Shown: in pieces, positions 357 through 46,317 of the stretch | How positions within the stretch are numbered: position 1 is the first letter of the stretch | How the letters are laid out: each line of letters opens with the position of its first letter | Assembly: GCF_023845585.1 (NCBI RefSeq) | Contig: NZ_JAMQHS010000009.1 | Span: forward strand, 124,001 to 188,000 | Direction: 5' to 3' | Origin: Clostridium sp. CMCC3677 | GTDB lineage: Bacteria; Bacillota; Clostridia; Clostridiales; Clostridiaceae | Length of the DNA stretch: 64,000 nucleotides | Notes under the pieces: model-generated | What the model was told of the DNA's origin: nothing | Seen by the model: only the letters and a program-made list of their open reading frames with translations | Databases searched by the model: none | Translations under genes and position numbers: made by a program

Positions 357-573
357 GGCTATGTTTTAGTAGTGTGTTGATATATACATAAGTAAAATGG
401 ACTGAGTAATTGAACTTAGGAATGCTAAAATGAGTATAGTCCCATTTTAGCTTGCTCCCAATGTAAAATTGAGACAAGCAGTAAATGTGACAATACTCAT
501 TAAGAATTCTCAAAGTCCAATTACAATGCCATTTCACCTATTTTATATATCAACACATATTTAAAACAGAGCC
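357..573. repeat. Dispersed palindromic element, full-length copy (217 bp)
   Basis: Imperfect palindrome starting GGCTATGTTTTAG and ending TTTAAAACAGAGCC. It has internal inverted arms (GTTGATATATACATAAG against its complement near 545) and a central hairpin around GCTTGCTCCCAATG / ATTGAGACAAGC. The flanking octamers TAATATTT (349-356) and TAAAATTT (574-581) agree at 7 of 8 positions, suggesting a decayed target duplication. It has the same length as the copy at 46101. Confidence 0.85.
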
Positions 574-912
574 TAAAATTTATATTAATTAATATATAGT
601 CTTTATTTTTTTATGTAAAAATGATATAATTTACAAATTGAATATATTTACATAAGTTTGATAGAAGATAAATTTAATGATTACTTTAGTGATTGAGAGA
701 AAGTATGAAATAATTTAAGTATTATTTTGTGCTTTTTTTTTATACATAGAACTAATTATTACTTAATAAAAACGCTATAATATTCAAACAAATAAAAGTA
801 AAATAAGTATAAAAATGGTTTTATTATGATATTATATTATCATAATAGAATAAGAAATTACTCAACATGATAATTAGTTTATTTAAATTATAATAAATTA
901 TTAAATAGGGGG
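574..912. other. Intergenic region with a 26-bp inverted repeat
   Basis: AT-rich and without a supportable gene. It holds a perfect inverted repeat, TATTATGATA-TTATAT-TATCATAATA, at 822-847. This lies about 70 bases before the phosphohexomutase start and could be an operator or an mRNA hairpin. No other structure was recognised. Confidence 0.5.
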
Positions 913-918
913 ATGGGT

Positions 919-2442
919 ATGAACAATAACTGTTTGCATGACTTACAAAATGGAAGTGACATTAGAGGAATTGTATTAACTAATGAAGATCAAGTTATAA
1001 ATTTAACTAATAAAGAAATTAAAATTATAACAATAGCATTTCATGAATGGTTAAAAAATAAAAATAAGCTTAATAATTTAAAAATTTCAGTGGGGATAGA
1101 TTCTAGAATAACGGGAAATGAATTTAAACACACTATAATCAACACATTAGTCGCGTGTAAAGTCACAGTATATGATTGCAAATTATCAACTACACCATCA
1201 ATGTATATGACAACTATTATGGATGATTATAAATGTGATGGAGCTATAATGATAACTGCAAGTCATCTTCCTTATTATTATAATGGCATAAAACTATTTA
1301 CTAAAAATGGATGTTTAGATAAAGAAGAAATTAAAGAGGTATTAAATATAGCATCAAAATATGAAGACAATAAAGAAAATGTTTTTGTAAGTGAAATGGA
1401 AGCTAGAAGAATGACTATTTTTAAGCCACTTATTAATGATTATTCTAAACTCTTAGTAGAAAAAATAAGAAAAGAAATTAATTCTTCAGAAAATTACAAT
1501 AAGCCTTTAACAGGAATGAAAATTATATTAGATGCAGGAAATGGTTCAGGAGGATTTTTCAAAGAAAAAGTATTAGAAGAATTAGGTGCTGACACAACAG
1601 GAAGTCAATTTATAGAGCCTGATGGTACATTTCCTAATCACATTCCAAATCCAGAAACAGATATTTCTATGAATTTAATAAGTAATGCAGTTATAGATAA
1701 CAATGCTGATTTAGGAATTATTTTTGATACAGATGTAGACAGAGCTGCTTTGGTTGGAAGAGAAGGTAGATTTATAAATAGAAACTCTTTAATTGCACTT
1801 ATTTCTGCAATTGTATTAAAAGAACACAAAGGATCTACTATAGTTACTGATTCAGTGACATCCGATGGAGTAAGCAAATTTATAAAAAAATTAGGTGGTA
1901 AACATCATAAGGTTAAAAAGGGATATAAAAATATTATAAATGAGGCTATGAAACTAAATAATAAAAGGGAAGAATGTTATGTAGCTATTGAAACATCAGG
2001 TCATGTTGTATTAAAAGAAAATTATTTTTTAGATGATGCAGCTTATTTTGCATCAAAAATACTTATTGTTATGGCTAAATTAAAAAATGAAAATAAATTT
2101 ATTGAGGATTTAATAAGTGATTTAGAATTACCAAATGAGGAAAGAGAAATAAAATTAGCAATTAATGAAAAGGATTTTAATAATTATGCTAATAAAATAT
2201 TATATGATTTTGTTAAAGTGATTGCTGATAATGATAATATGCAAATTGATGAAGATAATTGTGATGGAATAAAAGTTATATTCAATGAAAAATTTGGAGA
2301 AGGTTGGTTTACATTAAGACTTTCTTTACATGAGCCTAAAATAGTAATTAACGCTGAATCTAATAAAACATCAGGATGTGAAAAAATACTAGAATTTATT
2401 AAAAACTTTATTAATAATTATAACGTAAGTTATTTAAACTAA
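919..2442 (+). CDS. Phosphohexomutase (phosphoglucomutase/phosphomannomutase family)
   Basis: Alpha-D-phosphohexomutases interconvert hexose 1- and 6-phosphates in the cytoplasm through a phosphoserine. Numbering from the ATG at 913, the catalytic loop is TASHLPYYYNG with Ser117, the metal site is DTDVDR (272-277) and the sugar-phosphate site is ETSGH (360-364). The order and about 507-residue length fit the family. Family loops usually read TASHNP and DGDADR, so the Leu and Thr are departures. The ATG at 919 is preferred because AGGGGG ends six bases before it; the ATG at 913 abuts the same purine run. The substrate cannot be decided. A mannose-1-phosphate guanylyltransferase lies at 33 kb, but it is too distant to link them. 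It is monocistronic with its own terminator. Confidence 0.85.
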   Translation: MNNNCLHDLQNGSDIRGIVLTNEDQVINLTNKEIKIITIAFHEWLKNKNKLNNLKISVGIDSRITGNEFKHTIINTLVACKVTVYDCKLSTTPSMYMTTIMDDYKCDGAIMITASHLPYYYNGIKLFTKNGCLDKEEIKEVLNIASKYEDNKENVFVSEMEARRMTIFKPLINDYSKLLVEKIRKEINSSENYNKPLTGMKIILDAGNGSGGFFKEKVLEELGADTTGSQFIEPDGTFPNHIPNPETDISMNLISNAVIDNNADLGIIFDTDVDRAALVGREGRFINRNSLIALISAIVLKEHKGSTIVTDSVTSDGVSKFIKKLGGKHHKVKKGYKNIINEAMKLNNKREECYVAIETSGHVVLKENYFLDDAAYFASKILIVMAKLKNENKFIEDLISDLELPNEEREIKLAINEKDFNNYANKILYDFVKVIADNDNMQIDEDNCDGIKVIFNEKFGEGWFTLRLSLHEPKIVINAESNKTSGCEKILEFIKNFINNYNVSYLN

Positions 2443-2465
2443 TTTAAAAATATAGAATTACATTT

Positions 2466-2510
2466 AAAGCTATATATCATTTTTAATCATGATATATGGC
2501 TTTATTTTAT
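2466..2510 (+). terminator. Rho-independent terminator of the phosphohexomutase gene
   Basis: AAAGCTATATATCAT (2466-2480) pairs with ATGATATATGGCTTT (2489-2503) with one G-U, followed by ATTTTATT. It begins 24 bases after the stop codon. Confidence 0.8.
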
Positions 2511-2831
2511 TGTAATCTTAAAAATATTTATATATAATTTTGCATAAATATAGCTATTAAAGGATAATTCTAATATTAAATATAAATCTTATTATACATT
2601 AATAATGTTTTAATAATATTTTAGATTGTACCTATTAGTACATAAATGCTATACTATATATAATGAGATTGTTTATATAAAATAGAAAATAAAGTATATT
2701 TAATCAATTATATAATAATTTTATCCTTATATAATTGATTGATTTTTAAAATATTATATATTTTATTAAAAAATTTGTAAAATTAATATAACAATCATTT
2801 ATATTAAATTGAAAGGAAGTGGTGTAAGTAT
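2511..2831. other. Leader region of the antiporter gene with an inverted repeat
   Basis: No gene is visible. A perfect 14-bp inverted repeat, AATCAATTATATAA (2702-2715) and TTATATAATTGATT (2727-2740), is separated by 11 bases and followed by GATTTTTAAA. It lies about 90 bases upstream of the antiporter start and may be a leader hairpin or a regulator site. I could not match it to a known riboswitch. Confidence 0.45.
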
Positions 2832-4244
2832 ATGACAATACCATTAATTTTAGCCTCTTTAGTATTAATAATTTGTGTATTTTCTAGTAAAGTTTTATAT
2901 CGATTTGGAGTACCCTCATTATTAATATTTCTGGTGTTAGGAATGATATTTGGAAGCGAAGGAATTGTTGGAATAAGATTTGATAATTATAAAATAGCTG
3001 AAGAAATTGGATCATTTGGATTAGTTTTTATAATGTTTTATGGAGGTTTTTGTACTAATTGGAAATTAGCAAAACCAGTTGTTACTAAAGCCACATTAAT
3101 GTCAACAATAGGAGTTATTATAACAGCAGGTCTTACTGGAATATTTTGTACGTGGGTTCTTAAATCCTCTTTATTAGAAGGTTTTCTACTTGGAGCAGTA
3201 GTAGCATCAACAGATGCAGCATCTGTATTTTCAATTTTAAGATCTCAAAATTTAAATTTAAAAGATGGCTTAGCATCTTTGTTAGAAATTGAAAGTGGTA
3301 GTAATGATCCAGTAGCATATATGCTTACTGTAATAATATTAAGCTTTATGTCTGGAGCACAACAATCAATTTTTAAACTTTTATTATTTCAAGTATTATT
3401 TGGAATAATAATTGGAGTTGTTTTAGCTAAAATAAGTACATGGATTTTAAAAAATGTTGTTTTTGAAATAGAAGGACTTTATCCTGTTTTTGTAATGGCC
3501 ATTGCTATTTTGGCATATTCTTTAAGTATATGGCTTGGTGGAAATGGTTATTTAAGTGTTTACATAGCAGGAATAATAATTGGTAATAGTAAAATACAAA
3601 ATAAAAAAAGTTTGGTTAAATTTTTTGATGGAATATCTTGGTTAATGCAGATAATGTTATTCTTTATATTAGGATTATTATCTTTTCCATCACAAATACA
3701 TTTAGCGTTTTTACCAGGATTTTTAATTTCTATATTTTTAATTTTTATAGCAAGACCAATATCAACTTTTGCAATATTAAGCTGGTTTAAAGTGCCTATA
3801 AAACAACAAATTTTTGTTTCATGGGTAGGACTTAGAGGGGCAGCGTCAATAGTTTTTGCTATATTAGCAGTAACGAATGATGCATTGATAAATTTTGATA
3901 TATTTCATATAGTATTTTTCATAGCATTATTTTCTGTATCATTACAAGGAACTTTAATATCTCCTATAGCTAAAAAACTAGATCTTGTTGATAATGATGC
4001 TGTAGTATTAAAGACTTTTAATGATTATCAAGAAGAAATGAACACTAAATTGGTAGAACTTGAAATAAAACCAGAAAGTAAATTAGTTAATAAAAATATT
4101 ATAGATGCTAATATACCAGAAGATATATTAGTTGTTATGATAAAACGTAATGGAAAAATACTACATCCGAAAGGAAAAACTATTATTTATAGTGGTGATA
4201 TTTTAGTCTTAACAGGAGAAAATTTTGATAATATAGACTTTTAA
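2832..4244 (+). CDS. Potassium/proton (CPA1-type) antiporter with C-terminal RCK_C domain
   Basis: A membrane antiporter expected to exchange K+ or Na+ for protons. Residues 1-385 form about 12 hydrophobic segments. The Asp-containing pore signatures ASTDAASVFSIL and ESGSNDPVAYML are typical of NhaP2/CvrA-like CPA1 exchangers. Residues 395-470 resemble a TrkA-C (RCK_C) ligand-binding domain (LVNKNIIDANIPEDILVV, then a GDILVLTG end). The 470-residue length is usual for NhaP2-like proteins with one RCK_C. The start has GAAAGGAAGTGG upstream. In related proteins the RCK_C domain can bind nucleotides such as c-di-AMP; that is family knowledge and not visible here. It stands alone with its own terminator. 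Confidence 0.88.
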   Translation: MTIPLILASLVLIICVFSSKVLYRFGVPSLLIFLVLGMIFGSEGIVGIRFDNYKIAEEIGSFGLVFIMFYGGFCTNWKLAKPVVTKATLMSTIGVIITAGLTGIFCTWVLKSSLLEGFLLGAVVASTDAASVFSILRSQNLNLKDGLASLLEIESGSNDPVAYMLTVIILSFMSGAQQSIFKLLLFQVLFGIIIGVVLAKISTWILKNVVFEIEGLYPVFVMAIAILAYSLSIWLGGNGYLSVYIAGIIIGNSKIQNKKSLVKFFDGISWLMQIMLFFILGLLSFPSQIHLAFLPGFLISIFLIFIARPISTFAILSWFKVPIKQQIFVSWVGLRGAASIVFAILAVTNDALINFDIFHIVFFIALFSVSLQGTLISPIAKKLDLVDNDAVVLKTFNDYQEEMNTKLVELEIKPESKLVNKNIIDANIPEDILVVMIKRNGKILHPKGKTIIYSGDILVLTGENFDNIDF

Positions 4245-4311
4245 AAATAACTTTTCTTATGTATATAGTAATGCTTTAGCAAAGTATATTAAAAATAAAT
4301 AGATATGTTGT

Positions 4312-4355
4312 AGGATTATATTAAGGATAAAACTTAATATAATCCTTAATTTTTA
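4312..4355 (+). terminator. Terminator after the antiporter gene
   Basis: Perfect 14-bp stem, AGGATTATATTAAG (4312-4325) with CTTAATATAATCCT (4333-4346), followed by TAATTTTTAT. Confidence 0.9.
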
Positions 4356-4854
4356 TGTCTAAAGTATATTTAAGGGATATTTAGAATACAAAGTTTGATT
4401 ATATATTAACAAATTACCAGGTCTATGGTTATTATTATCATAAAAACATAAAAAATACAAATTATAAGCAATATATGAATTTAATAGATGATTTGATTTT
4501 AAGTAAAAAAGTATGACTTAAATAATAATATAACAAAAAATATATGGAAAAATAAATAAACTAATAAAATATAATTTTATGCATTGAAGAAATAAAATAA
4601 TTAACATATAATTAAGTTGTTAATAATTTAACAAATATTTAAAGTTATTGACTACACCTATTAATATATACCAATCCTCTTAATAAGAAGTTTAGATATT
4701 TAATATAGTAGATACAATATTTGAACTTTTTATTAGAAAACGTTTAGTAAATTTCATAAGATTAATAATTTTTTATTTTAGCTATGATATAGATATGAAA
4801 ATAATAATTAATTTATATAAATAAAATACATTAAATTGTAAAGGGGAAAAAGAT
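4356..4854. other. Long intergenic region upstream of the formate/nitrite channel gene
   Basis: About 500 AT-rich bases without a supportable ORF. The only clear element is the Rex-type operator at 4617-4634, listed separately. No homology to a coding remnant was recognised. Confidence 0.5.
4617..4634. promoter_or_regulatory. Rex-type operator upstream of the formate/nitrite transporter
   Basis: TTGTTAATAATTTAACAA is a perfect inverted repeat and matches the clostridial Rex consensus TTGTTAA-N4-TTAACAA at every defined base. It lies about 220 bases before the transporter start, and the rex gene is at 39.7 kb. Control of this gene by the NADH/NAD+ ratio is inferred. Confidence 0.7.
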
Positions 4855-5616
4855 ATGTATATTAGTGATGTTGAAATTATCTCAAAGTCGGCAAGAAATA
4901 AATACGAATTATCTAAAAATGCACCGACAAAATATATAACTAGAGCAATTGTAGCAGGATTTTATTTAGTAGTAGCAATAATTTTATCATATACAATAGG
5001 TGCTATTTTGAATCCTAATTACCCAGAACTAGCTAGAATAATGGTAGCAGCTACATTCTCAATAGCGTTAGCACTCATTGTTTTTTTAGGTGGTGAGTTA
5101 TTTACAGGTAATAATATGGTTATGGCAGTAGGGGCTTATACTAAAACATGTACTTTAAAGATGGCATTAAAAGTATGGTGTTTAAGCTACTTAGGAAATC
5201 TTTTAGGAGCAATAGTTATATCATTTTTATTTGTCAAAAGTGGAGCATCACTTTCTTTAATACAAGAGTATATAAGAGGTATAGTAACTACGAAATTTAC
5301 TCTTTCAGCATTTGAATTGCTCATAAGAGGAATTCTATGCAACTTTATTGTGTGTCTAGGTGTATTATCTACTATTAGATTAAAATCTGAAAGTGGTAAA
5401 TCTATAATGATGTTTTGGTGTGTATTTGCATTTGTTATTGCTGGATTTGAGCATAGCATAGCTAATATGGGTATTTTTTCAGTTGGGTATTTTGCATTAG
5501 GTGGATTATCAATGACCTTAATAATAAAAAATTTATTTTGGGTAACATTAGGTAATATAATTGGTGGTGGAGTATTATTAGCATTGCCATTAACATATAT
5601 GAGTGTTGAAGAATAA
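4855..5616 (+). CDS. Formate/nitrite transporter (FNT family) protein
   Basis: FNT proteins are pentameric six-helix channels for small monovalent anions (formate, nitrite, hydrosulfide). The 253 residues show six hydrophobic segments. FLGGELFTGNNMVMAVGAY matches the conserved FNT stretch (GxxLFTGN) at the second half-helix, and the matching region before the last helices reads CFVIAGFEHSIANM-like (FAFVIAGFEHSIANMG). In a butyrate-forming anaerobe, formate exchange is the likeliest role, but no formate enzyme gene is adjacent. Start: AAAGGGG lies eight bases upstream of the ATG. A Rex-type site upstream suggests redox control. The gene ends in a strong terminator. Confidence 0.88.
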   Translation: MYISDVEIISKSARNKYELSKNAPTKYITRAIVAGFYLVVAIILSYTIGAILNPNYPELARIMVAATFSIALALIVFLGGELFTGNNMVMAVGAYTKTCTLKMALKVWCLSYLGNLLGAIVISFLFVKSGASLSLIQEYIRGIVTTKFTLSAFELLIRGILCNFIVCLGVLSTIRLKSESGKSIMMFWCVFAFVIAGFEHSIANMGIFSVGYFALGGLSMTLIIKNLFWVTLGNIIGGGVLLALPLTYMSVEE

Positions 5617-5624
5617 AATTATAA

Positions 5625-5670
5625 AAAGGTGTTTTAGCTAATTTAAGATTATCTAAAACACTTTTTTTAT
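5625..5670 (+). terminator. Terminator after the formate/nitrite transporter gene
   Basis: GTGTTTTAG (5629-5637) pairs with CTAAAACAC (5653-5661), followed by a run of T. Confidence 0.88.
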
Positions 5671-5762
5671 TTTGAATTAGTTTAAATAAATGTTAAATTC
5701 TTAGACAGTAGATATTCTCCGTGATAAAATAAAGTTATAGAATAATATTTTTCTTAAATTAA

Positions 5763-5835
5763 GGCTATGTTTTAAGTAAATTCATCTGTCCATGAGTTTT
5801 ATACTACAATATCAACACTGTTTTAAAATATAGCC
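5763..5835. repeat. Dispersed palindromic element, short copy (73 bp)
   Basis: Starts GGCTATGTTTTAAG and ends TTTTAAAATATAGCC. It carries the CAACACTG and GAGTTTTATACTA motifs seen in the copy at 21078, so it looks like an internally deleted member of the second subfamily. No flanking duplication is evident. Confidence 0.7.
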
Positions 5836-5876
5836 AAATAATTAAGTTTTATACATTATAGATAGATGGTGATTAA

Positions 5877-6281
5877 GTGGTTATAGTAAAGTTAGAAAAG
5901 AATAAGAAAAGACAAATTATTTTTAAAATTAAATTTACAGATGGTGAAGAAAATAAATTATTTTTTAAAAGAGCTATTATAGAGGGTAAAAAAATAAAAG
6001 GAAACTTTGATTATCAAGTACCTTTAAGATTTTTTATTCCAATAGTAAAAAATATAAATAAAAAAGATATATTGTTAGATAAAGATAGTTTGTTATGTTA
6101 TTTAGAATTTTCGGATATGTATGATCAAAATTATTATAATGAAACACAAGCTACTCCTAACTATATGAAAAGATGGAGAGAAGAGGGATGTCCTGAAATT
6201 TATAAAGTAACTATTGATAAGGATAATTGCAATATAGAAAAGGAAATTATTTTTAATAAACCTAAAGTTTATTTTGAATAA
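5877..6281 (+). CDS. Hypothetical protein (134 aa)
   Basis: Not recognised. It is a basic, soluble-looking protein without a signal peptide or membrane segment. It begins at a GTG preceded by GATGGTGA at a workable spacing. The C-terminal third (YMKRWREEGCPEIYKVTI) is mixed alpha/beta in character. It follows a mobile-element copy and converges on the carbonic anhydrase gene, sharing a bidirectional terminator. No neighbour suggests a function. Codon use matches the flanking genes. Confidence 0.6.
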   Translation: MVIVKLEKNKKRQIIFKIKFTDGEENKLFFKRAIIEGKKIKGNFDYQVPLRFFIPIVKNINKKDILLDKDSLLCYLEFSDMYDQNYYNETQATPNYMKRWREEGCPEIYKVTIDKDNCNIEKEIIFNKPKVYFE

Positions 6282-6304
6282 CTAGTGGTTTAATATAAAA
6301 ATAA

Positions 6305-6348
6305 AAAATTAGAAATAACTTTTTATATAGATATTTCTAATTTTGTAG
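6305..6348. terminator. Bidirectional terminator between convergent genes
   Basis: AAAATTAGAAATA (6305-6317) pairs with TATTTCTAATTTT (6332-6344). T-rich arms on both strands let it serve the hypothetical gene on the plus strand and carbonic anhydrase on the minus strand. Confidence 0.8.
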
Positions 6349-6377
6349 TATTAAAATTAAAATAAGAATATATTTAT

Positions 6378-6938
6378 TTAAATATCGCCATTTACAATAA
6401 TATCGATCTTTCCTGTATCTGGGCTGATAATTAATCCATGAACTCTTATGTTCTTAGGAATTAAAGGATGATTTTTTATCATTTTTACGCTTTCTTTTAT
6501 AGAATTTTCAACAGATTCAAATCCATGAAGCCATGATTCAATATTTATTCCAGAATTATTTAGAATAGATAAAGTATCATTACTTATTCCTCTATCAACC
6601 ATCTTACTTATAAGAGTTTTGGTATTTAAATTACTCATACCGCAACCGTGATGCCCTACTACAAATATATCTTCAGCTCCAAATTCATATATTGCAACTA
6701 ATATACTTCTTATTACGCTACCAAATGGATGAATTACAGTTGCACCAGCGTCTTTTATTATTTTTGCATCTCCATTCTTTATATTCATAGCCTTAGGTAA
6801 TAATTCTGTTAATCTAGTGTCCATACATGATAATATAACCATTTTCTTTTTAGGAGTTTTGGTTGTAATAAACTCTTCAAATTTTTTACTTTCTACAAAG
6901 TCGTTATTATATTTCATTATTTCTTCTAATTTACTCAT
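6378..6938 (-). CDS. Beta-carbonic anhydrase
   Basis: Zinc enzyme interconverting CO2 and bicarbonate in the cytoplasm, supplying carboxylases. Numbering from the chosen start, the signature CMDTR gives Cys38 and the Asp40/Arg42 dyad, and GHHGCG gives His96 and Cys99, so all zinc ligands are present. The 186-residue length fits the short beta-class form common in Firmicutes. I chose the ATG at complement 6938 because AGGTGG lies eight bases before it. The upstream GTG at 6950 overlaps that Shine-Dalgarno and would add only four residues. It is transcribed alone, convergent with the preceding gene. Confidence 0.9.
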   Translation of the reverse strand: MSKLEEIMKYNNDFVESKKFEEFITTKTPKKKMVILSCMDTRLTELLPKAMNIKNGDAKIIKDAGATVIHPFGSVIRSILVAIYEFGAEDIFVVGHHGCGMSNLNTKTLISKMVDRGISNDTLSILNNSGINIESWLHGFESVENSIKESVKMIKNHPLIPKNIRVHGLIISPDTGKIDIIVNGDI

Positions 6939-7769: not shown

Positions 7770-7854
7770 AATAATAACAATATAATAAAATATTTTTAAA
7801 TTATGGTTGCAAATGTTAAAAAATGATATATAATATAAACATATTAAAAATAAA

Positions 7855-9370: not shown

Positions 9371-9578
9371 ATTTTCTTTAAGAAAATGTTGATATATGCA
9401 TAAATAAAGGTGGACTAAGCAATTAAACTTAGGAATACTAAAATGAGTATAGTCCAATTTTAGCTTGTTCCCAATATGAAATTGTGACAAGCAGTAAATT
9501 TGACAATATTCATTAAGAATTCTCAAAGTCCAATTACAATGCCACTTTACCTATTGCATATATCAACATATTTTAAAA
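9371..9578. repeat. Dispersed palindromic element, degenerate full-length copy
   Basis: Aligns across its length to the copy at 357 (GTTGATATATGCATAAA, ACTTAGGAATACTAAAATGAG, TTTTAGCTTGTTCCCAAT, GCATATATCAACAT). The outer CTCTGTTTTA ends are eroded (TTCTTTAAGAAAATG, ATATTTTAAAAATAA). No flanking duplication was found. Confidence 0.75.
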
Positions 9579-9597
9579 ATAAAAATTAAGATAAAGA

Positions 9598-9692: not shown

Positions 9693-9876
9693 TTTATGAT
9701 TTAGTATAGGAGCGTAATGGCATTGGAATTTACTTTTTAGAATTCTTAATAAAGATTTGTTGAATTAATTGCTTGTCACAATGTTTCATTGGGAGCATGC
9801 ATTAATTAGACTAAGCTTTATTTTAGTATTCTTAAAGCAAATTCCTCAGTCCATAAGCTTTATACTAAATCATAAA
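9693..9876. repeat. Dispersed palindromic element, second subfamily (184 bp)
   Basis: Ends are TTTATGATTTAGTATA (9693-9708) and its exact complement (9861-9876). Inside are AAGTAAATTCC-type and TTTTAGAATTCTTA motifs shared with the other copies, and a central GCTTGTCACAATG...CATTGGGAGCATGC hairpin. The outer arms differ from the GTTGATATATGC subfamily. Confidence 0.75.
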
Positions 9877-9899
9877 CTATTTCAATGAATCAAAAGAAA

Positions 9900-15934: not shown

Positions 15935-16069
15935 GGTAATGTTTTATCAAAGTGCTTATATATGCATAAGCAAAGTGGATGGAGTAATTCAATTTAGGAA
16001 TACTAAAAAAGAATATAATTTCATTTTAGCTTGCTCCAAATATAAAATTGAGACAAGCAGTAAATATGA
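15935..16069. repeat. Dispersed palindromic element, 3'-truncated copy
   Basis: Begins GGTAATGTTTTATC, then TTATATATGCATAAGCAAAGTGGA, and reaches the central hairpin region (TTTTAGCTTGCTCC, AATTGAGACAAGCAGTAAATATGA). The right arm is missing, so this is about 60% of a full copy. It lies six bases after the stop codon of the preceding gene. Confidence 0.75.
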
Positions 16070-16091
16070 ATTAAAAAAAGTAAAATTAATT

Positions 16092-16133
16092 AGGGTTACC
16101 AGAAAAGATTTTTAAATAATTTCTAGTAACCCT
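16092..16133 (-). terminator. Terminator of ispF
   Basis: AGGGTTACCAGAAA (16092-16105) pairs with TTTCTAGTAACCCT (16120-16133). It is located directly downstream of ispF on the minus strand and followed there by AATTAATTTTA. Confidence 0.75.
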
Positions 16134-18091: not shown

Positions 18092-18153
18092 ATAAAAAGA
18101 TAGATATGTTTAAGCAGTATATTGATATATTTTAAAAATAATCTTTTATTTTT

Positions 18154-18266
18154 AGCTCTGTTTTAAATGTGTGTTGATATATGCAATAGGTAAAGTGGCA
18201 TTCCTAAGTTCAATTACTCCGCCAACTTTGCTTATGCATATATCAAAACTCTGCTAAAACAGAGCC
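18154..18266. repeat. Dispersed palindromic element, 113-bp internally deleted copy with 8-bp duplication
   Basis: Ends are AGCTCTGTTTTAAATG and GCTAAAACAGAGCC. It is flanked by perfect direct repeats TTATTTTT at 18146-18153 and 18267-18274. The right-hand repeat begins with the complement of the stop codon of the deacetylase gene, so the element inserted exactly at that gene's end. Confidence 0.92.
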
Positions 18267-19190
18267 TTATTTTTTTGTGTTTTCTAATAACTGTTTGAAT
18301 GTATCCATATCATAATTAGAACTTATATAAATTCTGTTAAGCAATAGAGGATTGTCATCCCTATCAGAAAGACCCAAATCTGTAGTAAATCCTAATTTAA
18401 AACCAGCATCTTTAGCAGCTTTTACACTGTTATCATCATAATTTCCATAAGGATAAGCAATACTAGTGACTGGCTTCTCAGTAATTGCTTCTAATGTTTC
18501 TTTAGATTCTAAAAATTCTTTTAATTGTTCATCATATGTCATTTTAGTAAGATCAGGATGTCCAGCAGTATGGCTTTGAATATCTATTCCGTAATCAGAC
18601 ATTTTCTTTATAGCTGATTCTGAAAGATAATATTCTCCATCTAACTCAAAAGTAATACAAAATATAGTAGCTTTCATATCTAAATCTTTTAATATAGGAA
18701 ATGCATTAGTATAGTTATCCATATATCCATCATCAAAAGTGATTACAATACTTTTTTCTGGAATAGGAGTATTGTTTAATAGATAATCTTCTAACTCTTT
18801 AAGAGTTAGAGTAGTATATCCAGAATCTTTTATATATCTAAGTTGATTTCTAAGTTTTTGAGGAGCTATAATAACCTCGTTATTTTCAGAATTTTTAACT
18901 GAATGATAGTATAAAACTGGAACCCCAATATTCTCATTAGTTAATTTTAAATCATTATTTGTGTTAATTTCCTTTTCATCTTCAACATCAGAGATTTCTT
19001 TATCCGTATCATTAAATTCTGGATTATTATCATCAATAGCCTCAGTAGTAGTAGAATTATTTGAATTTTTATCAACAGTATCTTTTAAGAATAAGTTATT
19101 ATACATAAAATATGAAATAATTACACAAATTAAAACACAAGTCAATATAATGATATTTTTTTTTGTAAAAAAATTATTTAAATTTTTCAA
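18267..19190 (-). CDS. Membrane-anchored polysaccharide deacetylase (NodB domain)
   Basis: Carbohydrate esterase 4 enzymes remove acetyl groups from peptidoglycan or other N-acetylglucosamine polymers outside the cell. An N-terminal anchor (IIILTCVLICVIISYFMY) is followed by an acidic Asn-rich linker. The NodB domain has motif 1 ITFDDGYMDN with the catalytic Asp, motif 2 SHTAGHPD with both metal His, motif 3 YPYGNYDD, and a C-terminal LLLNRIYI in the usual place. It is 307 residues. A palindromic element is inserted right at its stop codon. A paralogue lies at 61117. The start follows TAGGAGG. Confidence 0.9.
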   Translation of the reverse strand: MKNLNNFFTKKNIIILTCVLICVIISYFMYNNLFLKDTVDKNSNNSTTTEAIDDNNPEFNDTDKEISDVEDEKEINTNNDLKLTNENIGVPVLYYHSVKNSENNEVIIAPQKLRNQLRYIKDSGYTTLTLKELEDYLLNNTPIPEKSIVITFDDGYMDNYTNAFPILKDLDMKATIFCITFELDGEYYLSESAIKKMSDYGIDIQSHTAGHPDLTKMTYDEQLKEFLESKETLEAITEKPVTSIAYPYGNYDDNSVKAAKDAGFKLGFTTDLGLSDRDDNPLLLNRIYISSNYDMDTFKQLLENTKK

Positions 19191-21077: not shown

Positions 21078-21192
21078 ATTGATATTTTAGTATAAAACTC
21101 ATGGACAGAGAAATTTACTTTAAGAGTTCTAAAAAGTAAATTCCAATGCCACTTTGCTTTTATACTAAAACATCAACATTGTCTTAAAACAG
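21078..21192. repeat. Dispersed palindromic element, second subfamily (about 115 bp)
   Basis: TTGATATTTTAGTATAAAAC at the left pairs with TTTTATACTAAAACATCAA at the right, ending TTGTCTTAAAACAG. The interior has AAGTAAATTCCAATGCCACTT, shared with the copy at 9693. It sits immediately after the YitT stop codon. Confidence 0.75.
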
Positions 21193-21214
21193 AAAACTTT
21201 ATAAAGTTAATCAA

Positions 21215-30458: not shown

Positions 30459-30670
30459 TCTGGTGCAGAAATTAAACTCTTTTTAAATTACCAAAAGTTT
30501 ATTAAAAATAGGGAAAAGCAAATATTGTTTAAAAGTTAGAAGTAAGAGAAGAAATTATATAAATATTAAATAATTGATAAAATTTAAGTTTAAGAGGTTT
30601 AGATTATAGAAAAAAAATGAAAATTGTCTTATAATTTCTATATTGGTAGTAACATAATATAGAATAATAA

Positions 30671-30770
30671 GGCTCTGTTTTAAATGTGTGTTGATATATG
30701 CAATAGGTAAAGTCCAATTACTCCGCCCACTTTGCTTATGCATATATCAAAACCCTGCTAAAACAGAGCC
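30671..30770. repeat. Dispersed palindromic element, 100-bp copy with perfect 8-bp duplication
   Basis: Ends are GGCTCTGTTTTAAATGTG and CTAAAACAGAGCC; the inner arms are GTTGATATATGCAATAGG and TTATGCATATATCAA. It is flanked by AATAATAA at 30663-30670 and 30771-30778. The centre present in the 217-bp copies is missing. Confidence 0.95.
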
Positions 30771-30796
30771 AATAATAAAAAGGAGACAAATAGTTT

Positions 30797-39181: not shown

Positions 39182-39191
39182 TTAAATTAAA

Positions 39192-39293
39192 GGCTCTGTT
39201 TTAAATGTGACAATACTCATTTTAGCATTCCTAAGTTCAATTACTCCGCTTACTTTGCTTATGCATATATCAACACTCTGATAAAACAGAGAC
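39192..39293. repeat. Dispersed palindromic element, 102-bp copy with perfect 8-bp duplication
   Basis: Ends are GGCTCTGTTTTAAATG and GATAAAACAGAGAC. It is flanked by AAATTAAA at 39184-39191 and 39294-39301. It inserted three bases after the cadA stop codon. Left inner arm sequence differs from the 100-bp copy (TGACAATACTCATTTTAGC), so the deletion end points are different. Confidence 0.95.
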
Positions 39294-39340
39294 AAATTAA
39301 AAAAAGAGTTATATTTTATAATAAATCATAAAATAATAAT

Positions 39341-39725: not shown

Positions 39726-40358
39726 ATGGATAAAAATAAGAATATATCTATGGCAGTTATAAAGAGATTGCCTAAATATCATAGGTATCTTAATGAACTT
39801 ATGAAAAATGATGTAGATAGAATATCGTCAAAGGAACTTGGAGAAAAAATAGGGTTTACAGCATCTCAAATCAGACAAGATTTGAATTGTTTTGGCGATT
39901 TTGGTCAGCAAGGATATGGGTATAACGTTAAGGAATTATATACGCAAATTAACTCAATATTAGGATTAGATAAGGAATATAATGCTGTTTTAATTGGGGC
40001 AGGTAATATAGGGCAGGCAATAGCTAATTATACTAGATTTGATAAATTAGGAATTATGATAACAGCTATTTTTGATGCAAATCCTAAACTTATAGGCATA
40101 AAAATTAGAGATATTGAAATTAGGGATATTGATGAATTAGGAAGCTTTCTTAAGTCAGATTCAATAGATATTGGAGTTATATGTGTGCCTAAAAAAAGTG
40201 CACAAAAGGTTAGTGATGAATTGATAAATGGAGGAATAAGAGGTATTTGGAATTTTGCACCTATAGATTTGGTTGTGCCAGAAGATGTAAAAGTTGAAAA
40301 TGTTCATTTAAGTGAGAGTGTATCGACATTGATTTATCAATTACATCAGCAAAGATAG
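39726..40358 (+). CDS. rex: Redox-sensing transcriptional repressor Rex
   Basis: 210-residue dimeric repressor that senses NADH/NAD+. The N-terminal winged helix is AVIKRLPKYHRYLNELM through ELGEKIGFTASQIRQDLNCFGDFG, the signature region. The Rossmann motif is VLIGAGNIGQAIANY, and the C-terminal swapped helix is NVHLSESVSTLIYQL. All match Rex. It sits directly upstream of the butyryl-CoA operon, whose promoter region has two Rex sites. High NADH should release Rex and induce the operon. AAGGAG lies before the ATG. Confidence 0.97.
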   Translation: MDKNKNISMAVIKRLPKYHRYLNELMKNDVDRISSKELGEKIGFTASQIRQDLNCFGDFGQQGYGYNVKELYTQINSILGLDKEYNAVLIGAGNIGQAIANYTRFDKLGIMITAIFDANPKLIGIKIRDIEIRDIDELGSFLKSDSIDIGVICVPKKSAQKVSDELINGGIRGIWNFAPIDLVVPEDVKVENVHLSESVSTLIYQLHQQR

Positions 40359-40480
40359 AGTGAGAATTTGAGGGGTTATATAAAAAATATGCTAATAATA
40401 CAATATTTTATTGCAAATAATAATTATAAGTATTATAATTTAAGAAAAGAAAGATATTGGTTGCATATTTTTTTGCAAGC

Positions 40481-40502
40481 AATTGTTAATATTATAACAA
40501 TT
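40481..40502. promoter_or_regulatory. Rex operator 1 upstream of crt
   Basis: Core TTGTTAATATTATAACAA with flanking AA and TT. It is nearly palindromic and fits the clostridial Rex site. It is identical over 22 bases to the second site at 40556. Confidence 0.85.
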
Positions 40503-40555
40503 GGCGACAATTGTTGACATTATAAGACTATTACAAGCCTTTTATTTTTAAATTT

Positions 40556-40577
40556 AATTGTTAATATTATAACAATT
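40556..40577. promoter_or_regulatory. Rex operator 2 upstream of crt
   Basis: Exact copy of the 22-bp site at 40481; the centres are 75 bases apart. A degenerate third site, TTGTTAAGAATTGTTTA, follows at about 40594. Two sites a whole number of helical turns apart could allow looping. Confidence 0.85.
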
Positions 40578-40706
40578 TTAATTTAAAAATAAATTGTTAA
40601 GAATTGTTTAGAATTAATTTTTACCATATCTAAAACCTAAAAATACAAATTTATTTAAGTAAAAAACATAAATTTAAATATATAAGTTTAAGGGAGGATT
40701 ATAAAG

Positions 40707-41489
40707 ATGGAATTAAAAAATGTAATTCTTGAAAAAGAGGATCATTTAGCAATTGTTACAATTAATAGACCAAAAGCTTTAAATGCATTAAACTCAGAAA
40801 CATTAAAAGATTTAGACTCAGTTTTAGAAAATTTAGAAAACGATAGCAATATATATGCAGTTATTTTAACTGGTGCAGGAGAAAAATCTTTTGTTGCTGG
40901 AGCAGATATATCAGAAATGAAAGACCTTAATGAAGAACAAGGTAGAGAATTTGGAGAATTGGGAAATAAAGTATTCCTAAGATTAGAAAATTTAGACAAA
41001 CCTGTAATTGCAGCTATTTCAGGATTTGCTTTAGGTGGCGGATGTGAATTATCTATGTCATGTGATATAAGAATAGCTTCAGAAAAAGCAAAATTTGGTC
41101 AACCAGAAGCAGGTCTTGGAATAACACCTGGATTTGGTGGAACTCAAAGATTAGCTAGAATAGTAGGACTAGGAAAAGCTAAGGAAATGATTTATACATG
41201 CGATATAATCAAAGCAGAAGAAGCTTATAGAATAGGATTAGTTAATAAAGTAGTTTCATTAGAAAGTTTAATGGATGAAGCAAAAGCTATGGCTAATAAA
41301 ATAATAGCAAACGCTCCAATAGCTGTTAAACTTTGTAAAGATGCAATCAATAGAGGCATGCAAGTTTCTATAGATAAAGCAGTCTTAATTGAAGCTGAAG
41401 ATTTTGGAAAATGTTTTGCTTCTGAAGATCAAACAGAAGGAATGACTGCATTCTTAGAAAGAAGAGAAAAGAACTTCAAAAATAAATAA
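40707..41489 (+). CDS. crt: 3-hydroxybutyryl-CoA dehydratase (crotonase)
   Basis: Dehydrates 3-hydroxybutyryl-CoA to crotonyl-CoA in the butyrate pathway. The 260-residue protein shows the crotonase fold: NRPKALNALNSET, the oxyanion loop AGADISEMKDL and GFALGGGCELSMSCD, and both catalytic Glu regions (LGGGCE and GQPEAGLGITPGFGGTQRLAR). The length is exact for clostridial Crt. It is first in crt-bcd-etfB-etfA-hbd. GGGAGG lies nine bases before the ATG. Confidence 0.97.
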   Translation: MELKNVILEKEDHLAIVTINRPKALNALNSETLKDLDSVLENLENDSNIYAVILTGAGEKSFVAGADISEMKDLNEEQGREFGELGNKVFLRLENLDKPVIAAISGFALGGGCELSMSCDIRIASEKAKFGQPEAGLGITPGFGGTQRLARIVGLGKAKEMIYTCDIIKAEEAYRIGLVNKVVSLESLMDEAKAMANKIIANAPIAVKLCKDAINRGMQVSIDKAVLIEAEDFGKCFASEDQTEGMTAFLERREKNFKNK

Positions 41490-41573
41490 TATTTATAAAA
41501 TAAGTTAAAAATCTATTGCAGATTTATATATATTCATCATCAATAGAGTGTAATCAATAAGGAGGGTAATTTA

Positions 41574-42713
41574 ATGAATTTCCAATTAACTAGAGAACAA
41601 GAATTAGTACAACAAATGGTTAGAGAATTCGCTGAAAACGAAGTAAAACCAATTGCTGCTGAAGTGGATGAAACTGAAAGATTCCCAATGGAAAACGTTG
41701 AAAAAATGGGTAAAATAGGCATGATGGGTATACCATTTGCTAAAGAATTTGGAGGAGCAGGTGGAGATGTTCTTTCATATATAATGACAGTTGAAGAATT
41801 GTCAAAAGTGTGTGCAACAACAGGAGTTATAGTTTCAGCTCATACTTCATTATGTGCATCAGTAATAAACGAACATGGTACTCCAGACCAAAAAGCAAAA
41901 TACTTACCAGATCTTTGTCAAGGTAAGAAAATAGGTGCTTTCGGTTTAACTGAACCAGGTGCTGGAACAGATGCTGCTGGACAACAAACAACAGCTGTAT
42001 TAGATGGAGATCACTATGTATTAAATGGATCAAAAATCTTCATAACTAATGGTGGAGTTGCTGAAACTTTCATAATCTTCGCTATGACTGATAAGAGCCA
42101 AGGAACTAAAGGAATTTCAGCTTTCATAGTTGAAAAATCTTTCCCAGGATTCTCAATCGGTAAATTAGAAGATAAAATGGGAATCAGAGGATCTTCTACT
42201 ACTGAACTTGTAATGGAAGATTGTATAGTACCAAAAGAAAACTTAATCGGTAAAGAAGGTAAAGGTTTTGGTATAGCAATGAAGACTCTTGATGGAGGAA
42301 GAATTGGTATAGCTGCTCAAGCTTTAGGTATCGCAGAAGGTGCTTTTGAAGAAGCTGTTAACTACATGAAAGAAAGAAAACAATTCAGAAGACCATTATC
42401 AGCTCAACAAGGTTTACAATGGTATATTGCTGAAATGGACGTTAAGATAGAAGCTGCAAGACATTTAGTATATAAAGCTGCTTGCAAGAAACAAAATGGA
42501 CAACCATACTCAGTAGATGCTGCAAGAGCTAAGTTATTTGCTGCAGAAGTTGCAATGGATGTTACAACTAAAGCAGTTCAAATCTTTGGTGGATATGGTT
42601 ACACTAAAGATTATCCAGTAGAAAGAATGATGAGAGATGCTAAGATAACTGAAATTTATGAAGGAACTTCAGAAGTTCAAAAAATGGTTATCGCAGGAAG
42701 CATTTTAAGATAA
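41574..42713 (+). CDS. bcd: Butyryl-CoA dehydrogenase
   Basis: 379-residue acyl-CoA dehydrogenase that reduces crotonyl-CoA to butyryl-CoA. In clostridia it acts with EtfAB to bifurcate electrons from NADH to crotonyl-CoA and ferredoxin. Motifs: AFGLTEPGAGTDAAG (FAD/substrate), the GIRGSSTTELVMEDC stretch, FGGYGYTKDYPVERMMRDAK, and IYEGTSEVQKM with the catalytic Glu. It follows crt by 84 bases. Codons include many C-ending ones, as expected for an abundant enzyme. Confidence 0.97.
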   Translation: MNFQLTREQELVQQMVREFAENEVKPIAAEVDETERFPMENVEKMGKIGMMGIPFAKEFGGAGGDVLSYIMTVEELSKVCATTGVIVSAHTSLCASVINEHGTPDQKAKYLPDLCQGKKIGAFGLTEPGAGTDAAGQQTTAVLDGDHYVLNGSKIFITNGGVAETFIIFAMTDKSQGTKGISAFIVEKSFPGFSIGKLEDKMGIRGSSTTELVMEDCIVPKENLIGKEGKGFGIAMKTLDGGRIGIAAQALGIAEGAFEEAVNYMKERKQFRRPLSAQQGLQWYIAEMDVKIEAARHLVYKAACKKQNGQPYSVDAARAKLFAAEVAMDVTTKAVQIFGGYGYTKDYPVERMMRDAKITEIYEGTSEVQKMVIAGSILR

Positions 42714-42732
42714 TAGAGGGAGGACTTTTATA

Positions 42733-43515
42733 ATGAATATAGTAGTTTGTGTAAAACAAGTTCCAGATACTACAGCTGTAAAGATTGATCCTAAGACTGG
42801 TACATTAATAAGAGATGGTGTTCCATCAATTATGAATCCAGAAGATAAGCACGCATTAGAAGGTGCATTACAATTAAAAGAGACTTTAGGTGCAAAGGTA
42901 ACTGTTATAAGCATGGGTCTTCCAATGGCTAAGGCTACATTAAGAGAAGCACTATGCATGGGAGCTGACGAAGCTATCCTATTAACAGACAGAGCATTAG
43001 GAGGAGCAGATACTTTAGCTACTTCAAAAGCATTAGCAGGAGTTATAGCTAAATTAGATTATGATCTAGTATTTGCAGGAAGACAAGCTATCGATGGAGA
43101 TACTGCTCAAGTTGGACCAGAAATAGCTGAACATTTAAACATACCTCAAGTTACTTATGTTCAAGGCGTTGAAGCTAAGAATGAAGGAACTTTATTAGTA
43201 AACAGAGCATTAGAAGATGGATATGAAAAAATTGAAATAAAGACTCCATGTCTATTAACTGCAATTGAAGAATTAAATGAAGCAAGATATATGAATGTTG
43301 CAAACATATTCTCAACTAACGATGATCAAATCAAAGTTATGAGTGCAGATGATATAGATGTAGATAAGGCTGAATTAGGACTTAAGGGTTCACCTACAAA
43401 GGTTAAAAAGTCAATGACTAAAGAAGTTAAGGGAGCAGGCGAAGTTGTTAACAAGCCAGCTAAAGAAGCAGTAACTTACGTTTTAGGCAAATTACAAGAA
43501 AAACACTACATCTAG
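42733..43515 (+). CDS. etfB: Electron transfer flavoprotein beta subunit (Bcd-linked)
   Basis: 260 residues: MNIVVCVKQVPDTTAVKIDP, MNPEDKHALEGALQLKE, VISMGLPMAKA, GADEAILLTDRALGGADTLATS and the FAD-binding [19 protein letters not shown]. It partners EtfA and Bcd in the bifurcating complex. It lies 19 bases after bcd with GGGAGGA as ribosome site. It is more similar in motif detail to Bcd-linked EtfB than to LctB at 26902, so the two pairs are functionally separate paralogues. Confidence 0.97.
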   Translation: MNIVVCVKQVPDTTAVKIDPKTGTLIRDGVPSIMNPEDKHALEGALQLKETLGAKVTVISMGLPMAKATLREALCMGADEAILLTDRALGGADTLATSKALAGVIAKLDYDLVFAGRQAIDGDTAQVGPEIAEHLNIPQVTYVQGVEAKNEGTLLVNRALEDGYEKIEIKTPCLLTAIEELNEARYMNVANIFSTNDDQIKVMSADDIDVDKAELGLKGSPTKVKKSMTKEVKGAGEVVNKPAKEAVTYVLGKLQEKHYI

Positions 43516-43537
43516 GATAATAGGAGGGTAATTTATT

Positions 43538-44545
43538 ATGAATATAGCAGATTACAGAGGCGTTTGGGTCTTTGCAGAACAAAGAGAAGGCGAATTACAA
43601 AAAGTATCTTTAGAATTACTTGGCGAAGGTAGAAAAATTGCTGATAAGCTAGGAGTTAAGTTAACAGCATTATTATTAGGTAATAATATTGAAAACTTAT
43701 CTAAAACATTAGCAGAACATGGTGCAGATGAAGTTTTAGTTGCAGATGACAAAAACTTAGAACACTACACTACTGATGCTTATACAAAAGTTATTTGTGA
43801 TTTAGCAAATGAAAGAAAACCAGGAATATTATTTATAGGAGCTACTTTCATCGGAAGAGATTTAGGTCCTAGAGTTGCAGCTAGATTATCAACTGGATTA
43901 ACTGCTGACTGTACATCATTAGATGTTGAAGTTGAAGATGGAGCTTTATTAGCTACTAGACCAGCATTCGGTGGTAACTTAATGGCTACAATCGCTTGTC
44001 CAGAACATAGACCACAAATGGCTACAGTAAGACCAGGAGTTTTCGGTAAAGTAAATACTGATGGAAGCAAATGTACTGTAGAAAAAGTAGAAGTTAAACT
44101 TGCTGATAGTGATGTTAGAACTAAAGTTGTAGAAATCATTAAAGCACACAAAGATGTTGTAGATATATCAGAAGCTAAAATACTTGTTGCTGGTGGTAGA
44201 GGAATGGGTTCAAAAGAAAACTTTACTTTATTACAAGAATTAGCAGAAGTTTTAGACGGAACTGTAGCTGGATCAAGAGCTGCTGTTGATAATGGTTGGT
44301 TAGAAAGAGATTACCAAGTTGGACAAACTGGTAAGACTGTAAGACCATCAATCTACATTGCTTGTGGTATTTCAGGAGCAATTCAACACGTTGCTGGTAT
44401 GCAAGAATCAGATATGATTATAGCTATCAACAAAGATGAAACTGCACCAATAATGCAAGTTGCAGATTATGCTATAGTTGGAGATGTTAAGAAGGTTTTA
44501 CCTGAATTAATAGCTCAAGCTAAAGCTGTAAAGAGTGCTGAATAA
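43538..44545 (+). CDS. etfA: Electron transfer flavoprotein alpha subunit (Bcd-linked)
   Basis: 335 residues without a ferredoxin extension. It has YRGVWVFAEQREGELQKVSL, FIGATFIGRDLGPRVAARL, the RPAFGGNLMATI region, and the FAD signature GGRGMGSKENF...VGQTGKTVRPSIYIACGISG. Its FAD is the electron-accepting centre next to Bcd. It lies 22 bases after etfB with AGGAGGG upstream. Confidence 0.97.
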   Translation: MNIADYRGVWVFAEQREGELQKVSLELLGEGRKIADKLGVKLTALLLGNNIENLSKTLAEHGADEVLVADDKNLEHYTTDAYTKVICDLANERKPGILFIGATFIGRDLGPRVAARLSTGLTADCTSLDVEVEDGALLATRPAFGGNLMATIACPEHRPQMATVRPGVFGKVNTDGSKCTVEKVEVKLADSDVRTKVVEIIKAHKDVVDISEAKILVAGGRGMGSKENFTLLQELAEVLDGTVAGSRAAVDNGWLERDYQVGQTGKTVRPSIYIACGISGAIQHVAGMQESDMIIAINKDETAPIMQVADYAIVGDVKKVLPELIAQAKAVKSAE

Positions 44546-44581
44546 TTAAAATATTATAGTGTAAAATTATTATAGATTTTA

Positions 44582-44617
44582 ATCCTTCATTAAAAGATAT
44601 TTCTTTTAATGAAGGAT
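44582..44617 (+). other. Stem-loop between etfA and hbd
   Basis: Perfect 15-bp stem, ATCCTTCATTAAAAG (44582-44596) with CTTTTAATGAAGGAT (44603-44617), without a long T run. It may attenuate read-through to hbd or stabilise the upstream mRNA. Confidence 0.7.
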
Positions 44618-44647
44618 ATTTATAAAACATTTAAGGGGGATTTATCA

Positions 44648-45496
44648 ATGAAAAAAGTTTTTGTACTTGGTGCTGGAACAATGGGTGCTGGAATAGTTCA
44701 AGCATTCGCACAACATGGTTATGAAGTAATCGTAAGAGATATAAAAGATGAATTTGTTGAAAGAGGAATAGCTGGAATCAACAAAGGTTTAACTAAGCAA
44801 GTTGCTAAAGGAAGAATGACTGAAGAAGTTAAAGAAGAAATTCTTTCAAGAATTTCAGGAACTACTGATATGAAATTAGCTGCTGACTGCGATTTAGTAG
44901 TAGAAGCTGCTATTGAAAACATGAAAATAAAGAAAGAAATATTTGCTGAATTAGATGGAATCTGTAAGCCAGAAACAATCTTAGCATCTAACACTTCTTC
45001 TTTATCAATAACTGAAGTTGCTTCAGCAACTAAGAGAGCTGATAAAGTTATCGGAATGCATTTCTTCAACCCAGCTCCAGTAATGAAGCTTGTTGAAATT
45101 ATCAGAGGAATGGCTACTTCACAAGAAACTTTCGATGCTATAAAAGAATTAACAGTAGCAATTGAAAAGAATCCAGTAGAAGTTGCAGAAGCTCCAGGAT
45201 TTGTTGTAAATAGAATATTAATTCCAATGATCAACGAAGGAATTGGAATATTAGCAGAAGGTATAGCTTCAGTTGAAGATATAGATACAGCTATGAAATA
45301 TGGCGCAAATCATCCAATGGGACCTTTAGCATTAGGAGATCTTATCGGATTAGACGTATGTTTAGCTATCATGGATGTTTTATATAATGAAACAGGAGAT
45401 ACTAAATACAGAGCTCATAGCTTATTAAGAAAATATGTAAGAGCTGGATGGTTAGGAAGAAAGACTGGAAAAGGTTTCTACGACTATTCAAGATAA
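44648..45496 (+). CDS. hbd: 3-hydroxybutyryl-CoA dehydrogenase
   Basis: Reduces acetoacetyl-CoA to 3-hydroxybutyryl-CoA with NAD(P)H. The 282-residue protein has the Rossmann [25 protein letters not shown], and [14 protein letters not shown] with the catalytic His. [15 protein letters not shown] and GADHPMGPL-type ([13 protein letters not shown]) follow. AAGGGGG lies before the ATG at 44648. An earlier in-frame ATG at 44609 falls inside the upstream stem-loop and is rejected. It is last in the operon. Thiolase is not encoded here. Confidence 0.97.
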
Positions 45497-45508
45497 TATT
45501 ACATTTTT

Positions 45509-45539
45509 GGACTCAAGCATTATGCTTGGGTCTTTTTTT
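45509..45539 (+). terminator. Terminator of the butyryl-CoA operon
   Basis: GACTCAAGCA (45510-45519) pairs with TGCTTGGGTC (45523-45532) with one G-U, followed by seven T. Confidence 0.93.
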
Positions 45540-45654
45540 ATTGTTTAGGAATTTATATTTAATTTTACTTTTGTGTGAATTTTTGTCTTTAAGTAATATA
45601 TTAAAGTGATATAATGTATTAAGAAAGAATTATTTTCTACAAGGAGCGTTTTAA

Positions 45655-46089
45655 ATGTTAAAAGAAACAGCAATAAAATATTGGGATGATAAATACGATT
45701 TAAATTGTGCAGAGTGCTTAATATATGCATCAAATGAAGAATATGATTTGAATTTATCTGACGATGCACTGAAGACAATGGCGGCTTTTGGTGGAGGAAT
45801 GGCTATAGGGGATGTATGTGGAGTTATTTCTGGAGCTATAGCTGTAATTGGAATTATGTTTACAGATGTAAGTGGACATAGGAGTCCAGTTGTTAAAGAG
45901 ATGACTACAGACTTTATAAATAAATTTAAAAATAAGCTTGGAAGTAATAATTGTATTGAATTAAGGAAAGAATATAGAAAGTCTAAAAAAGAAGGAACTT
46001 GTATAGTTATGGTTGAAACTGCAGCAGATATTCTTGAAGGTATTGTAAATATATATGCTGATTTTAGATTAAATTCTAAGAGGCGCTAA
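45655..46089 (+). CDS. C_GCAxxG_C_C family (putative redox-active) protein
   Basis: 144 residues with the spaced Cys pattern of this family: NCAECLIYA near residue 18, FGGGMAIGDVCGVISGA at about 44-60, NNCIELR near 101, and GTC near 117. The GGGM..GxxCG block is diagnostic. The conserved cysteines suggest metal or redox chemistry, but the biochemical role is not known. It is transcribed alone, just after the butyryl-CoA operon terminator. CAAGGAGCG precedes the ATG. Confidence 0.78.
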   Translation: MLKETAIKYWDDKYDLNCAECLIYASNEEYDLNLSDDALKTMAAFGGGMAIGDVCGVISGAIAVIGIMFTDVSGHRSPVVKEMTTDFINKFKNKLGSNNCIELRKEYRKSKKEGTCIVMVETAADILEGIVNIYADFRLNSKRR

Positions 46090-46100
46090 TTTAAAAATAA

Positions 46101-46317
46101 GACTCTGTTTTAGAAAAATGTTGATATATGCAATAGGTAAAGTGGCATTGTAATTGTACTTTTAGAACTCTTAATGAGTATTATCATATTTACTGCTTGT
46201 CTCAATTCTATATTGAGAGCAAGCTAAAATTGGACTATATTCATTTTAGTCTTCTTAAGTTCAATTACTCCGTCCATTTTACTTATGCATATATCAACAC
46301 ATATTAAAAACAGAGTT
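46101..46317. repeat. Dispersed palindromic element, full-length copy (217 bp)
   Basis: Ends are GACTCTGTTTTAG and TTAAAAACAGAGTT. The arms are GTTGATATATGCAATAGGTA and its counterpart near 46275, and the central hairpin is GCTTGTCTCAAT / ATTGAGAGCAAGC. It is inverted relative to the 357 copy. There is no clear flanking duplication. Confidence 0.88.

Follow-up and report, generated by a model that had tools for sequence, protein, structure and literature searches.

Ten palindromic repeats in the 64-kb window (the whole stretch of DNA analysed here) are very probably non-autonomous MITEs that were moved by an IS1595-family DDE transposase, since lost from the genome or never fixed in it, and that carry a hairpin module separable from their transposition ends. 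The evidence comes from the copies and their target-site duplications, from a conserved interior that recurs between different ends in other species, and from complete IS1595-family elements in congeners that share both ends and duplications with the MITEs.

Copies, ends and target-site duplications

The family sequence is present at all ten positions at which the first-pass annotation had placed a copy, and the duplications it reported in the window (exact octamers at 18154, 30671 and 39192; 7/8 at 357) were recovered as described. The copies are the following, the core being the interior hairpin treated in the next section:

357..573, minus strand: full-length 217-bp type A copy; core at 389-540 on the minus strand; octamers TAATATTT (349-356) and TAAAATTT (574-581), 7/8 identical
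5763..5835, no strand assigned: type B, 73 bp, internally deleted, both ends present, no octamer repeat
9371..9582 (limits approximate), minus strand: type A, near full size, decayed ends; core at 9402-9553
9693..9880 (limits approximate), plus strand: type B, decayed ends, orientation opposite to its neighbour; core at 9709-9862
15935..16069, minus strand: type A, truncated, without the right end; weak core match at 15967-16102
18154..18266, no strand assigned: internally deleted, 113 bp; exact octamer TTATTTTT at 18146-18153 and 18267-18274
21078..21197 (limits approximate), minus strand: type B, partial; core fragment at 21093-21160
30671..30770, no strand assigned: internally deleted, 100 bp; exact octamer AATAATAA at 30663-30670 and 30771-30778
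39192..39293, no strand assigned: internally deleted, 102 bp; exact octamer AAATTAAA at 39184-39191 and 39294-39301
46101..46317, plus strand: type A, full length (217 bp), with left end GACTCTGTTTTAGAAAAATGTTGATATATGC; core at 46134-46285; octamers not preserved

Inspection of the paired ends at 5763 and 46101 revealed no octamer repeat, and the decayed or truncated copies at 9371, 9693, 15935 and 21078 offer no usable end pair; all four of the latter are matched by the hairpin-core model, which was trained partly on the same family. The end pattern GGCTMTGTTTTA (at most one mismatch) occurs 11 times in the window against 0.9 expected, a number reached by none of 100 shuffles. The minus-strand ORF 18267-19190 stops exactly at a MITE, its stop codon lying within the duplicated octamer 18267-18274.

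The same family extends throughout the genome that contains the window (G000, a 3.64-Mb draft in 150 contigs). MITE ends read GGCTCTGTTTTAAA or GGCTATGTTTTAAA, plus variants, with the forms GGCTCTG and GGCTATG; the pattern GGCTCTGTTTTAAA (at most one mismatch) has 102 matches genome-wide against a single match for the pattern read backward, which, with the excess in the window, gives the copies the terminal inverted repeats of MITEs. Two sequence types occur, A (GTTGATATATGCA) and B (GTTGATATTKTAGTATA), and internal deletions and insertions make the size vary between about 60 and 325 bp. A DNA search of G000 with the 217-bp copy returned 349 first-look candidates, 40 of which were scored. These best 40 places are 84-100% identical to it (query included) and, as expected for a palindromic element, most of them match on the other strand as well. 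Extrapolation from the 349 candidates and from the window's share of end matches (4/102 for ten copies) gives some 250-350 copies in G000. Their intergenic placement, as first described for the window, holds at genome scale: under a simple call of ORFs of at least 70 amino acids, 44 of 46 copies with at most two octamer mismatches have no ORF overlap exceeding 10 nt, the exceptions being a 13-nt overlap with an ORF end in one copy and a 240-nt ORF contained in another. The copies are thus short and non-coding, as MITEs are. No match to the 217-bp type A copy was found in plasmid and phage collections. Contigs C32, C64, C129, C10, C67 and C87 of G000 terminate 72-195 nt inside copies; for three the distance is exactly 131 nt. 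The repeats thus seem to interrupt the assembly. At L099:674-695 and L107:1842-1863, 22-bp solo palindromes consist of two abutting ends with no interior.

Duplication of 8 bp is likewise a property of the family as a whole. Among 72 candidate end pairs (ends paired in fetched G000 loci and in the window, some pairings being spurious), 33 are flanked by exact octamers, whereas octamers shifted outward by 8, 10 or 12 nt are identical in 0/72 at each offset and left and right octamers of different copies agree in 13/5112 comparisons. The 39 pairs with no exact octamer include spurious pairings and decayed copies. The duplicated octamers consist of A/T only in 31/33 cases and contain one G in the other two. 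Exact octamers also flank 10/30 candidate pairs in C. uliginosum DSM 12992 (G065), with six more at one mismatch, and 2/5 in C. weizhouense YB-6 (G067), with two more at one mismatch.

When each of 39 own type A copies is compared with its nearest neighbour, the median identity is 0.91, and 5/39 reach at least 0.97; these levels, together with the missing transposase (see below), suggest that the family has largely stopped moving. Ten joined-flank sites were searched against 68 genomes (four candidates scored per genome), and for five of them regions were examined among the matches listed. Relatives lack the copy at 46101, L002 and L084: the window copy 46101 is absent from G028, the copy at one site from G022 and G020 and that at another from G014, all with inexact junction alignments. 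Across the five sites no nucleotide-precise empty site was found, the element-free flanks in G028, G022, G020 and G014 being too diverged. Two C. weizhouense sites contain MITE remnants instead of empty targets, and some insertions are therefore probably older than the split from that species.

The hairpin core and its conservation

The interior hairpin is a more surprising part of these elements than the element itself and its duplications. A 217-bp copy folds into a single hairpin, long and imperfect (-104.8 kcal/mol, calculated for L007 and its flanks), with a core laid out as GCTTGTC - variable stem - GGAGCAWGC plus flanking stems; its invariant parts include GCTTGTC and, facing it, GAGCA.GC. 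The core alignment comprises 17 sequences from elements of G000, G065, G011, G056, G021 and G006, drawn from 22 non-redundant sequences after removal of one diverged copy and of four that carry an inserted module. Its consensus has 30 pairs, 18 with double changes, and 93.5% of cells are paired, against 81% in shuffles and 30-53% in slid structures, figures that are favoured because the structure derives from the same 17 sequences. None of 500 shuffles reaches the observed value in four of five measures; in the remaining one, further pair types, 56/500 do. The stems of some copies contain a second inserted hairpin, a module about 62 nt long (GTGAGAATC...GAACTTACTCAGCGAAGTCGAGTTTCC), which can sit on either side and recurs in several species (L055:1575-1636, L122:835-896, L155:872-1081, L217, L230, L301 and L303); it adjoins TTAA in the inspected cases, and at the IS1595-bearing locus L155 of G039 it forms three tandem 71-nt units.

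The core reaches well beyond G000. A covariance model, with the best 44 candidates scored per genome, finds it in 17 of 68 genus genomes, with at least 42-44 matches in 14 genomes and 37, 20 and 1 in the others; 16 of the 17 carriers thus have 20 to 44 matches, a count that can exceed the number of elements since a palindromic core can match on both strands. A family-wide scan (14 candidates scored per genome) detects the core in 17/206 genomes, all in one of 46 genera, and in no other genus of the family at the sensitivity used; both scans used strict filters, at the cost of weak matches, and part of the model's training set came from the scanned genomes. Outside G000, G065 and G067, a sequence profile built from 39 own type A copies matches 54 of 69 loci, several of which hold the same element (best E 6e-16, median span 95 nt), and 0/69 shuffled loci. 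The core lies between TATAGATATCC...GGATATCTATA ends in G056, G021, G022, G028, G011 and G006, and between TATAGGGTTCC...GGAACCCTATA ends in G001, G002 and G006 and, with mismatches, in G021. These comparisons show the core to be homologous to the interiors of other-ended elements in other Clostridium-group species. None of 23 TATAGATATCC-ended and none of five TATAGGGTTCC-ended elements has an 8-bp duplication, the fewest mismatches being three; TATA flanks the other-ended elements, which suggests a TA-type target. Since the same core occurs between different ends, the hairpin is a module separable from the transposition ends, and the IS1595-type MITEs carry a portable hairpin module. That this module is a structured domain selected as RNA or folded single-stranded DNA, acquired by at least three transposition systems within the genus and amplified in most carriers, is a proposal we make tentatively and consider rather doubtful.

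Some loci from other genomes have features of their own. L144, L131 and L135 (G056, G006) contain two or three hairpin elements within about 1 kb, some sharing a TATA junction, and at L187 and L188 (G012, G001) both the hairpin element and its flanks are almost identical, suggesting a shared insertion. One other-ended element has no match in the plasmid collection and another none in the phage collection. The Bacillota MAG contig JAJXWH010000011 (L224) also matches the core pattern.

Selection on RNA, selection on DNA and arm-to-arm copying are three readings entertained for what keeps the pairing. Arm-to-arm copying, the hairpin-templated correction of quasi-palindromes, would itself produce covariation and sits within the MITE explanation; we consider it plausible, if somewhat doubtful. 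Compensated cells outnumber wobble cells by 437 to 190 in the other-ended genomes (52 sequences), as templating of one arm by the other would predict, but they do not exceed them in the 39 own type A copies (120 versus 129). Copying could yield pairing, yet not the motifs GCTTGTC / GGAGCAWGC (with a bulged base) and TTCTTAA / TTTAGAA, which stay asymmetric across genomes, because it would erase asymmetry. Nor does it predict the modest wobble excess in the stems, where distinct mismatch events of G.U type number 177 against 130 of A.C type (p 0.009 under independence, an assumption that related copies violate; five own copies with the inserted module and two odd ones left out). The ratio is 54:44 in own type A (not significant), 27:15 and 24:16 in the C. 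uliginosum groups, reversed at 9:18 in own type B with C. weizhouense, and most clearly in excess in the other-ended genomes (63:37, p 0.012). The G.U excess leans towards RNA, unevenly.

A rival view, in which recombination and not transposition dispersed the repeats as structured RNAs or regulatory hairpins, is very unlikely. The first-pass annotation had set against its own reading a structured RNA showing compensatory changes but lacking duplications; the compensatory changes are indeed present in the conserved fold, and the G.U excess points the same way, but the duplications are present as well, exact in 33/72 own pairs and found in two other species. The wobble excess on which this alternative also draws is modest; it lacks significance in own type A and becomes a deficit in type B. 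Rfam yields three matches in the window, none at any copy, and no family reaches its gathering score at the copies; on eight related loci all 14 matches at E<=1 fall below gathering, 12 of them to microRNA models.

IS1595 as the likely parent family and the missing transposase

The parent, left unnamed by the first-pass annotation, can be named at family level as IS1595 from the matching ends and 8-bp duplications of elements in congeners. Full insertion sequences with the same ends exist as nine IS1595-family elements of 1.5-2.5 kb in nine congeners (G041, G059, G004, G048, G025, G042, G020, G062 and G002), but none was found in G000. Their ends are of the GGCTnTGTTTTAA...TGTTGA type, written GGCT[ACT]TGTTTTAA with TGTTGA further in and some one-base variants, and match those of the MITEs; all nine have exact 8-bp duplications, A/T only in 8/9. 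They come from a scan of 19 of 30 fetched IS1595 loci, ten of the 19 having paired ends 0.8-5 kb apart; the tenth paired element (G064) has two octamer mismatches. The transposases of three of these elements exceed the curated IS1595 cut-offs (NF033547, 177-210 bits against 75; PF12762, 38-44 against 27), and in two of the three there is a second gene, for an M28 peptidase (above the Pfam cut-off) or a PRK06761-like protein (below the NCBIfam cut-off). When the 24-nt MITE end was compared with the flanks of 28 IS1595 genes (two further loci, at contig ends, left out), both ends matched at 16/24 or better in 11/28 and in none of the reversed and wrong-orientation controls; at 15/24 the figures were 21/28 versus 5 and 5. 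Like ends and 8-bp duplication, the marks of IS1595 mobilisation, are found both in the paired IS elements (exact duplication in 9/10) and in the MITEs (exact in 33/72 pairs), and these sequence features support IS1595 as the parent family, with the MITEs presumably mobilised in trans. An initial candidate parent, L129/L147 (G047), has similar ends and no exact octamer and was superseded by the nine congener elements.

The ISL3, IS6 and IS256 families also produce 8-bp duplications, and G000 contains two decayed ISL3 stretches, but a parent from one of these families is extremely unlikely, as the inspected ISL3 copy (L061) has ends, read by eye as GGTTCTTTCCA, unlike the MITE end, the IS6 transposase domain PF13610 has no match in G000 (E<=0.001), and the IS1595 elements match in both ends and octamers. 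The decayed ISL3-family element, at L061:960-2110, directly adjoins a CRISPR-like repeat array.

Transposases of the IS1595 family occur in 39/68 genus genomes with one protein query (E<=1e-10) and in 35/68 with a second (E<=1e-20). In G000 none was detected with PF12762 (E<=0.001), NF033547 (E<=1) or the two protein queries (E<=1e-10 and 1e-20), the PF12762 negative being weak because that profile also misses the L129 transposase. The two protein queries likewise find none in C. uliginosum or C. weizhouense, both of which have the same MITEs. The autonomous partner that is usually, though not essentially, present in a MITE's own genome was thus not found in G000, and with no transposase detected in any of the three genomes the family looks orphaned. 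A profile of the MITE interior has no match in 60 IS-bearing loci (some holding the same element, some incomplete), and the MITEs therefore cannot be regarded as plain internal-deletion derivatives of the IS elements seen.

Under the IS1595 reading, a DDE transposase of this family would have recognised the approximately 24-bp MITE ends and cut 8-bp staggers in A/T-rich intergenic DNA. Its source would be an element of the kind still found in congeners, probably lost from G000 or never fixed there, given its absence at the sensitivity used. The longer copies contain a long imperfect hairpin between the ends, a module separable from them, which may aid the element or its host.

Relation to known elements

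A likely mover can be named for an abundant orphan MITE family, and intact-looking helper elements are indicated. The interior of a MITE is generally regarded as inert filler; the one described here is conserved across species and between different transposon ends, and a role in transposition, host tolerance or gene expression thereby becomes testable. No description of this family was found in a literature search that covered mostly papers outside subscription.

Bcr1 of the Bacillus cereus group has been described as mobile, with a shorter duplication. It is listed among stem-loop families, at 167 bp and with 31 copies in Bacillus anthracis (PMC2267715), and is likened to the present MITEs, also a stem-loop family, by description and not by sequence. 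Clop-1 of C. perfringens (93 bp) and Clot-1 of C. tetani (74 bp) are further clostridial families of repeated stem-loops (PMC2267715), again set beside these MITEs by description. Within the IS1595 family, 25-bp ends with 8-bp repeats are reported for the mobile elements MTnSag1 and tISCpe8 (PMC5704250). The MITEs share the ends and the 8-bp duplication of the nine congener elements but lack a transposase, and at about 60-325 bp they are shorter than those elements (1.5-2.5 kb). They resemble bacterial MITEs in being short and non-coding, in their inverted ends, target duplications and high copy number, and in a partner transposase presumed to act in trans. Unlike bacterial MITEs generally, they contain a long conserved hairpin interior that is unmatched in the IS elements seen and common to elements with other ends.
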